Made by a program: the position numbers and the translations under genes
Shown: positions 5,140 through 34,740 of the stretch, piece after piece
Numbering within the stretch: the first letter of the stretch is position 1
Layout: the number at the start of each line of letters is the position of its first letter
Source of the DNA: Dyella sp. 2HG41-7
Lineage (GTDB): Bacteria > Pseudomonadota > Gammaproteobacteria > Xanthomonadales > Rhodanobacteraceae
Length of the DNA: 64,000 nucleotides
Assembly: GCF_021390675.1 (NCBI RefSeq)
Contig: NZ_JAJEJV010000003.1
Span: 1 to 64,000, forward strand
Direction of reading: 5' to 3'
The notes under the pieces: generated by a model
What the model was told of the DNA's origin: nothing
Seen by the model: the letters and a program-made list of their open reading frames with translations, nothing else
The model's database searches: none

Positions 5140-5231
5140 CTGTATCAATCGCGTTACATCTGCTGGAAATGGCGCTGAAACGCCATTTTCAGCGAAAACG
5201 TTTGAAGTCGAGCTGTAACAATCTGATACAG
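5140..5231. promoter_or_regulatory. Paired palindromic sites upstream of a sigma-54 promoter (candidate activator sites)
   Basis: Two related sites face each other. Site 1 is TGTATCA-N6-TTACA at 5141-5158; site 2 is its mirror, TGTAAC-N4-TGATACA at 5214-5230. Their centres lie about 172 and 100 bp upstream of the expected sigma-54 start at 5322, the usual range for NtrC-type activator sites. Between them are two overlapping perfect inverted repeats, AAATGGCG/CGCCATTT (5167-5188) and CGCTGAAA/TTTCAGCG (5173-5194). Assignment to the adjacent activator is inference. The sites could instead serve the divergent argD promoter. Confidence 0.5.
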
Positions 5232-5295: not shown

Positions 5296-5310
5296 TGGCA
5301 CGCTACTTGC
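5296..5310 (+). promoter_or_regulatory. Sigma-54 (RpoN) promoter
   Basis: TGGCAC, five bases, then TTGC: a full match to the -24/-12 consensus. The expected transcription start is about position 5322. That places a GAGGGA ribosome site right at the 5' end and a GTG codon 13 nt in. A sigma-54 activator gene sits immediately downstream in convergent orientation, and palindromic sites lie upstream. The match of all ten conserved bases plus this context makes chance unlikely. Confidence 0.8.
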
Positions 5311-5334
5311 CCCTCTTCTTCTTTGAGGGACAAC

Positions 5335-5433
5335 GTGATCGCCAAAGCAAGCGGCAGTATCGGTCCGGACCAGGCGGCCAGTATGGGGAACATGCAAAGC
5401 ATCAACCTCGTCACGGGTGTTTCCAACCTGTGA
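5335..5433 (+). CDS. Putative 32-aa peptide under sigma-54 control
   Basis: Not a family I recognise. GTG start, 32 codons, TGA stop. The ribosome site GAGGGA is at 5325-5330, four to five bases from the GTG, and follows directly from the predicted sigma-54 transcript start. Codons are those of the genome's highly used set. The peptide begins MIAKASGSIGPDQAAS, carries methionines at residues 17 and 20, and ends in INLVTGVSNL. It has no cysteine, no signal sequence and no long hydrophobic helix; charge is low. The stop lies inside a 9-bp hairpin (5410-5434). Coding status is inferred from signals, not homology. Confidence 0.55.
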   Translation: MIAKASGSIGPDQAASMGNMQSINLVTGVSNL

Positions 5434-5502
5434 CGGCGCCATGGAGGAATTCGCCGTCGTAAGACGGCAACGAGGGCGGTAACCCGGCGACATGCCGCCG
5501 GG
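5410..5502 (+). other. Three hairpins in the sigma-54 transcript
   Basis: The predicted transcript is highly structured before its terminator. GTCACGGGT pairs with ACCTGTGAC (5410-5434, one G-U pair, 7-nt loop). CCGTC-GTAA-GACGG forms a tetraloop hairpin (5454-5467). CCCGGCG-ACATGC-CGCCGGG is a perfect 7-bp stem (5483-5502). Such structure suggests a regulatory 3' UTR or a dual-function small RNA. No known Rfam-like family is apparent to me. Confidence 0.5.
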
Positions 5503-5510
5503 CACCATGT

Positions 5511-5557
5511 GGAAGCCCCCGGCTCGTCCCCTGCGAGCCGGGGGTCTTCCCTTTTTT
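5511..5557 (+). terminator. Strong intrinsic terminator of the sigma-54 transcript
   Basis: A perfect 11-bp stem, CCCCCGGCTCG (5516-5526) with CGAGCCGGGGG (5534-5544), has a 7-nt loop. It is followed by TCTTCCC and six T residues (5552-5557). It ends the plus-strand transcript started at about 5322, giving an RNA of about 235 nt. Confidence 0.85.
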
Positions 5558-5720: not shown

Positions 5721-7058
5721 CTACTGCATGTCTTCGAGCACCAGCTGATGCTTCTTGCACAGCCGATAGATGGTGACACGCGACACTTTCAAGCGTCGGG
5801 CGCATTCGCTGATGTTGAAACGCGTCTCGCGCAAACACGCCATCACCGCATCGCGTTCTGCCGAGGTACGCGTAAGGCCGAGACTGGAGTGTCCTGCCCT
5901 GGGTGCGATGACGTCTTCGAGATCTAGATCGGCGACGCTGATCTGCGCACCTTCCGCCACCACCGCGGCGCGCTGCACGCGATTGAGCAGTTCGCGCACA
6001 TTTCCCGGCCACGAGAAATCGCGCAACGCCTTTCGCGACAACGCACTGAACGTACGCGCGTTGCAATTGTGCTGCTTGCGAAACGCGTCGAGGAAAATTT
6101 GCGCCAACTGCAACACGTCGTCGGCGCGCTCGCGCAACGCCGGCATACGCAGGCGCAACACGTTAAGACGGTAATAAAGATCTTCTCGGAAGCGACCTTG
6201 CGCGACGGCTTTCTCCAGATCGACATGCGTGGCAGCCAGCACACGCACATCGAGCTTGATCGATTGCGTGGAACCGACGCGCTCGAGCGTGCCTTCCTGC
6301 AACAGACGCAGCAGACTGATTTGCGCATCCGGCGGCAAATCGCCCACTTCATCCAGAAATACGGTGCCGCCCGCAGCCGCTTCGAAATGGCCTATACGCC
6401 GCGCATTGGCGCCGGTAAACGAACCGCGCTCGTGGCCGAACAATTCCGATTGCACGAGATTGGCCGGCAGCGCACCGCAATTGATCGCAGCAAAAGGGTG
6501 ATCTCTGCGCGGCGACAACCGATGCAACGCACGCGCCGCCACTTCTTTGCCGGTACCGGTTTCGCCGGTAATCAGCACCGGCAGATCCACGGGCGCGTAT
6601 TTGCGCAAGCTCGCCACCACCGCCATCATCGCCGCGCTGTTGCCGGTGATGCCTGGCACATCGGTATACGCAACAGGCACGGGCGCATCGCCGGCAAGTT
6701 TGCCGAGCGTTTCCACCAAGCGTTGCATATCGATCGGCGCGGTAAAGAAATCGATGCTTGCGCGTAGCACGCGCTCCAGCTCGGGCGCTTGCACGGACGT
6801 GTCGGTGGACAGCAATGCGAGCCAAGGAATGCGCGGATGATCGGCCATCAATCTGGCGATACTTCGCAGCGTCTCGGTATCGGCCTTGCGCACATCGGCC
6901 ATCGCGACAACCGTATCGCCGCGTCGGATACCAATGCCGCCCTGCGCAACCGCATCCGCGACACGCGTATGCCAGCCTGCTTGCGCTAAGCGCGCTCTCT
7001 CGATGCTCGTTGGCTCACCGAACCACACCACGCAGCGGATCGACGTGTCGCTCATCAT
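5721..7058 (-). CDS. Sigma-54-dependent activator, VpsR/NtrC-like
   Basis: Bacterial enhancer-binding protein of 445 aa. Residues 1-125 form a receiver-like domain in which the lysine expected in the TKPxD motif is alanine (FFTAPID, about 104-110). The AAA+ domain has Walker A GETGTGKE (165-172), GSFTGA for sigma-54 contact (212-217, a variant of GAFTGA) and Walker B GTVFLDEVGD (231-240). A Fis-type helix-turn-helix (NISECARRLKVSRVTIYRL) closes the protein. The start at 7058 follows GGAGGGAGG at 7-nt spacing. The domain plan resembles VpsR-type regulators, some of which sense c-di-GMP; that role is not shown here. Its obvious candidate target is the converging sigma-54 unit. Confidence 0.92.
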   Translation of the reverse strand: MMSDTSIRCVVWFGEPTSIERARLAQAGWHTRVADAVAQGGIGIRRGDTVVAMADVRKADTETLRSIARLMADHPRIPWLALLSTDTSVQAPELERVLRASIDFFTAPIDMQRLVETLGKLAGDAPVPVAYTDVPGITGNSAAMMAVVASLRKYAPVDLPVLITGETGTGKEVAARALHRLSPRRDHPFAAINCGALPANLVQSELFGHERGSFTGANARRIGHFEAAAGGTVFLDEVGDLPPDAQISLLRLLQEGTLERVGSTQSIKLDVRVLAATHVDLEKAVAQGRFREDLYYRLNVLRLRMPALRERADDVLQLAQIFLDAFRKQHNCNARTFSALSRKALRDFSWPGNVRELLNRVQRAAVVAEGAQISVADLDLEDVIAPRAGHSSLGLTRTSAERDAVMACLRETRFNISECARRLKVSRVTIYRLCKKHQLVLEDMQ

Positions 7059-7316
7059 CGCAACGCCTCCCTCCAGGATTGCCGGCCCATCGTCCCTACC
7101 GCGTCCTATCGGTAGATGTCTGCTTGCCCCATCGCCGGCACACGTCGAAAAAACTCGACGCTGTTCACGAAATATACACCGGTTTCTGTACGTGTGATCA
7201 CTTTTTAAGCAGTTAATCCCCACTCCACAACCCCAGGGCTGTGGATAACTCGCAAATGCATGGTACGCGTGAAGAGCGGCGGCCTGATGACAGCGGCCGC
7301 CAATTTTCAAAACTTA

Positions 7317-32618: not shown

Positions 32619-34679
<2,061 letters not shown>

Positions 34680-34740
34680 AACAACCTTTTCAGGCCCAGC
34701 TATTTGAACACGAAGCGGGGCGATAAACGAGTGAACGGGC

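Follow-up and report, generated by a model that had tools for sequence, protein, structure and literature searches.

Our analysis points to a small regulatory RNA that probably originated within a functional-amyloid (Fap) operon and whose promoter and activator were kept when that operon was deleted. Under the control of sigma-54 and an enhancer-binding protein (EBP), this RNA would act in trans through C-rich loops, and we regard this reading as likely. Comparison of genome sequences shows that the RNA element, which we call R1, is conserved and structured, that it is associated with the operon in relatives, and that it is present after the operon has been lost. All coordinates refer to the window, that is, to the whole 64,000-nucleotide stretch of DNA that was analysed, in which the relevant features are as follows.

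5141-5158, no strand assigned: two enhancer-like half-sites, TGTATCA (5141-5147) and CGTTACA (5152-5158), candidate EBP sites from 7-mer enrichment and position
5214-5230, no strand assigned: imperfect palindrome, TGTAACA (5214-5220) and TGATACA (5224-5230), candidate EBP site from 7-mer enrichment and position
5296-5310, + strand: sigma-54 promoter TGGCAC-N5-TTGC with predicted +1 at 5322, sequence and position conserved across loci
5335-5433, + strand: GTG open reading frame, a remnant of the fapC C-terminus and not a conserved peptide gene, from DNA homology and residue alignment
5448-5550, + strand: conserved three-hairpin RNA element R1, about 103 nt, from alignment, covariation and fold
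5453-5468, + strand: hairpin P1, GCCGUC-GUAA-GACGGC, from covariation and minimum-energy fold
5478-5506, + strand: hairpin P2, GGU..CCCGGCG / CGCCGGG..ACC, from covariation and minimum-energy fold
5511-5557, + strand: terminator hairpin P3 with U-tract (5552-5557), its loop UCCCCUG (5527-5533) being a candidate for pairing with targets, from covariation and fold
5721-7061, - strand: sigma-54 EBP whose N-terminal domain is of the VpsR type, probable activator, from domain matches and neighbourhood

Predicted transcript and conserved RNA structure

The first-pass annotation had proposed a sigma-54 transcription unit next to its activator, and we found no description of such a unit. Its promoter is present at 5296-5310 on the forward strand as TGGCACGCTACTTGC and predicts, as claimed, a start at 5322, followed by a GAGGGA ribosome site at 5325-5330, a GTG reading frame of 32 codons plus TGA at 5335-5433, and a strong terminator that proved real, consisting of a hairpin at 5511-5550 and six T at 5552-5557. 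The predicted transcript, 5322-5557, is 236 nt long, where about 235 nt had been given. Counts of the promoter motif were rejected as evidence, as they are at chance level both in the 64-kb window (6 matches at up to one mismatch, 7.2 expected) and in the whole genome (15 exact matches, and 15 for the reversed pattern). It is because of its conserved position, and not because of the motif itself, that the promoter at 5296 is credible: a match to TGGCA[CT]-N5-[TA]TGC is found upstream of the RNA in 35 of 35 loci that lack the operon, at a distance of 25-450 nt, and in 19 of the 21 that have it, at about 2.1-2.65 kb.

None of 200 shuffled sequences equalled the folding of the transcript (z -4.2), and for its part 5448-5557 the z value against shuffles is -5.9. 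A DNA search of 147 genomes of the family gave 47 matches, the genome's own included, 41 of which span only the part 3′ of the reading frame, at best window positions 5452-5553. The alignment of R1 comprises 45 copies and 115 columns, the weak matches L046 and L047 having been left out; the genomes of these two have no R1 match in the family-genome search either. With a three-hairpin structure drawn by hand, 91.8% of the cells are paired across the 45 copies, and 15 of the 31 pairs have changed on both sides (3 of 6 in the main helix of P2). Covariation as high as this was seen in none of 500 shuffles on four of five measures and in 6 of 500 on the fifth. The 27 rows from loci without the operon, taken alone, are 94.7% paired, with double changes at 10 pairs. 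Minimum-energy folding of the window sequence returns the same three hairpins, while RNAalifold, given the same alignment, predicts P3, replaces P2 with another pairing and lacks P1.

Although the stem of P3 varies, its apical loop contains CCCCTG in 45 of the 45 aligned copies; a P2 loop with CCTG is found in only 24 of them, and the junction GGGCGGTA is invariant. It is also conceivable that the RNA serves as a decoy for a protein such as CsrA/RsmA, or as an sRNA sponge, instead of or besides pairing with mRNAs, given that all aligned copies have a GGA between P2 and P3 (G64, G65 and A66 are invariant) and that the G-rich junction GGGCGG is conserved. This GGA, however, is located within the base of P3 and not in a hairpin loop, and the most conserved apical loop is C-rich, so we consider a decoy or sponge decidedly unlikely. 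As had been stated from the sequence, the RNA is not a recognised one: no Rfam family reaches its gathering cut-off at the locus, a lax search gives weak matches only, the highest being 6C RNA with 23.3 bits, and no description of the RNA was found in the titles and abstract openings of the publications among the matches listed.

The R1 model finds one copy per genome in 46 of the 147 family genomes, with no match in the other 101, and in 54 of 398 genomes of the order (52 in family f1 and two in family f2). The two lists combined make up 56 genomes, and the neighbourhood was examined in all 56; these loci were chosen for carrying the RNA, so whatever is described below as kept is kept among them, and the counts are not an unbiased rate of retention. 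When named genomes were scanned with a pattern, 37 records were obtained, corresponding to 27 Dyella, 5 Rhodanobacter, 2 Frateuria, 1 Fulvimonas, 1 Lysobacterales metagenome-assembled genome (MAG) and 1 Candidatus Eremiobacteraeota MAG. In the MAG with the latter label, the element (L162) is on a contig that is perhaps misplaced. In one operon-less genus (L061, L062, L118-L129), the RNA is preceded by a leader of 168-191 nt with a mean identity of 68% and a conserved closing helix of its own, GCCAGCTGCGA/TCGCAGCTGGC.

A fapC remnant and the loss of the Fap operon

The reading frame between promoter and RNA had been put forward as a gene for a peptide of 32 residues, and in this capacity it fails. 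According to the sequence comparison, the peptide is what is left, still in register, of the C-terminal end of the functional-amyloid subunit FapC. Homology to fapC DNA, at 83-84% identity to the intact gene of a genome of the same genus (G051) and to a fapC remnant (G115), begins at the GTG itself (query base 56, window position 5335); with a more sensitive BLAST, it extends in the remnant to base 48, up to 8 nt earlier. The residues align in register with the fapC C-terminus, 19 of 32 being equal to those of the L049 fapC by a count made by hand, and tblastn at E<=1e-4 did not report 5335-5433 as a fapC match. Conservation of the frame in relatives had been named as the test of the unit, and the peptide does not pass it; the transcription unit outlives this refutation because what is conserved in it is the structured RNA that follows the frame.

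A functional peptide, perhaps encoded by a dual-function sRNA, would be compatible with the regulatory RNA that we favour, and the frame is indeed intact, its GAGGGA is well placed, and in comparisons with 7 relatives pN/pS stays under 1 (0.43-0.65). These values nevertheless exceed most of those found between the relatives themselves (0.00-0.58 in 21 pairs, the two ranges overlapping), a weak sign of relaxation, and the frame is a fapC stump in the reading frame of the relatives. Furthermore, in 7 of the 35 operon-less loci, the predicted leader is no longer than 16 nt, or the start lies one base inside the element, and therefore there is no room for a frame of this kind. We hold it to be very improbable that the peptide has a function.

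The Fap operon surrounds the RNA in 21 of the 56 loci, with at most three genes on either side, and the RNA is located between fapC and fapD in these. The last gene of the operon matches FapF of PDB 5o65 (E 2e-85), and the NCBI models FapB, FapC, FapD, FapE and FapF match with E values of 1e-19 to 1e-116, all five below the NCBI cut-offs; fapA is named by position only. With or without the operon, argD is on one side and the EBP gene on the other in 54 of 54 loci of family f1; near the two f2 loci, argD was not found. The operon has been lost from 35 of the 56 loci, including that of the window, where genes for FapC, FapD and FapF are absent, and all 35 keep the sigma-54 site, the RNA and the EBP. 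A survey of FapF that covered 28 of these 35 found elsewhere in the genome only a match of 25-27% identity in 26 and none in two. The genome studied here has a distant pair of FapD-like and FapF-like genes at C4:1873025-1875837 (L268 is nearby), with 27% identity to the FapF query, which is perhaps another system of the Fap/Fil kind. Among the family genomes, 29 have a strong FapF match (E<=1e-109), and 11 of the 29 are without an R1 match; of two such spacers that were inspected, L143 has a hairpin loop TCCTCCC and L219 is without a C-rich loop.

In the operon-bearing relatives, a compact and strongly conserved structure before fapD is also what one would expect of a cis-acting, ligand-binding leader similar to a riboswitch. 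But the gene directly downstream is the convergent EBP gene here and in the other operon-less loci, and there is no Rfam riboswitch match at the R1 locus, which leaves such a leader only the slimmest of chances. (An ordinary TPP riboswitch is found elsewhere in the window, at 34589-34682 on the reverse strand, with 68.4 bits.)

Fragments of fap genes are detected at the tblastn level in five operon-less loci besides that of the window: fapC and fapF in L051, fapC in L053, fapA and fapD in L102, fapA, fapD and fapF in L105, and fapA in L113. Because the fragments differ between loci, they argue for separate deletions. In a tree built for 54 loci from their EBP, ArgD and HemL proteins, the presence of the operon changes at least 11 times, a count of gains and losses taken together, from an unrooted tree made by a quick method, with several weak forks and the two f2 loci left out.

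The RNA remains constrained once the operon is lost. Among five loci of the same genus without the operon (the window included), the element has a mean identity of 94.8%, whereas four-fold sites are 52.0% identical in the EBP gene and 52.5% in argD; the element is above the four-fold sites in 10 of 10 same-genus pairs and likewise in every pair of five other groups. A search by similarity favours similar copies, and the same genus is the best guard against this bias because all 12 of its genomes among those listed, our own included, carry the RNA, the operon being present in 7 of them and absent from 5 (81 genomes without an R1 match were outside this listing).

As to the origin of the element, a FapD search of 299 genomes of the order gave 37 matches, 24 of them in f2. 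Nineteen of these 24 loci were newly inspected, a twentieth being L099, and 18 of the 19 have before fapD a hairpin with a loop run of at least 5 C, the exception being L214; the loops of L200 and L206 were read directly from the folds. A second model, built from 21 fapC-fapD spacers of f2, two of which had been brought in by R1, matches 47 of the 398 order genomes. Its 19 matches in f1 are all at R1 places, and it misses the other 33 of the 52 f1 genomes found by R1, this one included. We take both models to represent a single element that has diverged. Inspection of 13 FapD-like loci outside the order found no hairpin loop with 4 or more C, whereas two f2 controls had one. In these loci (L250-L252, L254, L256-L264), a hairpin is often present upstream of the FapD-like gene, with loops that are not C-rich, and the hairpin may thus be older than the C-rich loop.

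Given that P3 resembles an intrinsic terminator, the element might be a mere strong terminator or mRNA 3′ end, working in fap operons as a partial terminator that sets the fapABC:fapDEF ratio and, after their loss, as a shield for the convergent EBP gene; the presence of hairpins without C-rich loops in most of the 13 loci outside the order would fit this idea. However, the longest T run after the P3 stem is no more than 2 in 21 of 21 operon-bearing loci, and a terminator alone would need neither P1, P2, the invariant junction and the CCCCUG loop, nor a retained promoter. The U-tract after P3 is longer in operon-less loci, with a mean of 4.6 T in 14 nt against 2.5 in the others (Mann-Whitney p about 1e-4, relatedness ignored). 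On balance, we find it unlikely that the element is a terminator and nothing else.

The probable activator and its candidate binding sites

The convergent gene had been taken for a sigma-54 activator, in agreement with its matches to Sigma54_activat, a VpsR domain and a Fis-type HTH, and this neighbour is conserved as well: the EBP gene closes the locus on its far side in all 56 RNA-bearing loci, and in those that have lost the operon it follows the RNA directly. The GAFTGA loop is the site at which such proteins contact sigma-54, and the motif reads GAFTGA in 44 and GSFTGA in 12 of the 56. An adjoining EBP and a -24/-12 promoter upstream of the RNA, the latter in every operon-less locus, are the marks of a sigma-54-dependent sRNA.

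TGTAACA or TGTTACA is found upstream of the promoter in 41 of 59 loci (the 54 R1 loci in which a promoter was matched, and five diverged ones), where 1.4 would be expected. In this genome, only 1 of the 15 consensus sigma-54 sites, that at 5296, has TGTWACA-type sites within 300 nt upstream, four in number, although the list of sites used for this count was picked after an enrichment that included the focus locus.

Relatives of the EBP at E<=1e-130 are present in 73 of the 147 family genomes, and none was found in viral contigs. In six loci (L133-L138), the EBP gene is kept beside argD, but the stretch between the two contains neither a consensus sigma-54 site nor an R1 match; the protein may have other targets there, or it may be decaying. 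Because of these six loci, the EBP may have another job besides the RNA. Between promoter and EBP, L139-L142 and L147 have another short RNA. It carries CCCTG in its hairpin region and a GGAA/GGGAA-like junction followed by a terminator-like hairpin, and it is perhaps a diverged relative of R1.

Proposed action and comparison with known systems

We infer that the RNA is transcribed in dependence on the EBP and acts in trans on target mRNAs. The EBP from the adjoining gene would bind the TGTWACA-type sites upstream and activate the -24/-12 promoter under a condition that also turns on amyloid synthesis in relatives, and its VpsR-type domain suggests c-di-GMP as a possible signal. A sigma-54-dependent sRNA of about 236 nt would then be made, with transcription ending at P3, and its functional part would be the three-hairpin element of about 103 nt at the 3′ side. 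The loop UCCCCUG would most likely pair with G-rich stretches near the ribosome sites of target mRNAs, lowering their translation, and a CCUG-type P2 loop could provide a second pairing loop in about half of the relatives. A search for CAGGGG-N3-10-ATG gave 159 sites against 37 for the reversed-pattern control, too many to name targets, and target prediction by loop seed was dropped as unspecific.

The element would have arisen within the Fap operon between fapC and fapD, its present place in relatives, and the operon would have been deleted on both sides of it, the lost stretches probably reaching from close to the beginning of fapA as far as the end of fapC and, on the other side, from fapD onwards. 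What remains here would be the promoter, the 32-codon fapC stump, the RNA and the EBP. By a narrow balance, we lean towards the broader proposal that an intercistronic RNA of an amyloid operon has turned into a trans-acting sRNA with C-rich loops, now the part of the locus under selection, and that the fap genes were deleted at least several independent times while promoter, enhancer sites, activator and RNA stayed, the evident job of the activator here being one regulatory RNA. The degrees of confidence that we attach to the preferred reading and to the alternatives are not mutually exclusive.

If true, this would be a natural example, and a replicated one, of an sRNA that survives the loss of its parent operon. 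The origin of new bacterial sRNAs is hard to watch, and the relatives studied here show the intact operon, fragments of it and the RNA alone, with the promoter type and the activator in common. It would also suggest that amyloid-matrix production in these bacteria carries a built-in post-transcriptional regulator, and the compact system of EBP, promoter and RNA would allow the role of the RNA to be tested with and without amyloid.

Several known systems have features in common with this locus. Qrr, GlmY and CrcZ are sRNAs made from EBP-controlled -24/-12 promoters, and the arrangement here, in which such a promoter would drive a candidate sRNA, is similar; unlike them, R1 has no Rfam match at cut-off, other flanking genes and an origin in an operon. 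The Fap functional-amyloid operon, as described in the searched text of PMC3792158 and PMC6173800, has the same gene order as the 21 operon-bearing loci and is deleted here; the word intergenic is absent from the searched text of PMC3792158, and the words hairpin, stem-loop and terminator are absent from that of PMC6173800. For the activator, the searched text of PMC5552954 describes BerB of Burkholderia cenocepacia as an EBP that works with RpoN in the control of biofilm and for which binding of c-di-GMP is reported. The gene that BerB activates, berA, encodes a protein (PMC5552954), whereas the evident target of the EBP here is an RNA; by analogy, BerB is a precedent for a c-di-GMP signal, which we infer for this locus.

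For the RNA itself, the closest parallels are with sRNAs that have C-rich loops. The 6C or B11 sRNA, known from actinobacteria, has C-rich hairpin loops reported to pair with ribosome sites (PMC10470900, in the text searched). R1 shares hairpins with such loops, and 6C (RF01066), the highest of the weak Rfam matches, scores less than half of its gathering score of 47 at the locus. In Xanthomonas, sX13 has three stem-loops, and its C-rich loops, together with G-rich motifs near translation starts, are needed for its effect, according to the searched text of PMC3771888. Sharing the mode of action of sX13 would mean repressing mRNAs that have G-rich motifs, with no need for Hfq. R1 resembles it in having three stem-loops and C-rich apical loops, in P3 of every aligned copy and in P2 of about half, and in coming from the same bacterial order. 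By the description in the same text, and not by comparison of sequences, sX13 differs in its place at polA, in contrast to the argD-EBP locus of R1 in all f1 loci, and in its loops, CCCC in loops 1 and 2 and CCCCC in loop 3 (PMC3771888); no sigma-54 or EBP control is given for sX13 in that text, whereas R1 has a sigma-54 promoter and an EBP. Thus, by analogy, the R1 RNA would resemble sX13 and B11 in its action and would be a member of neither, set apart from 6C because the score falls short and from sX13 because the locus differs.
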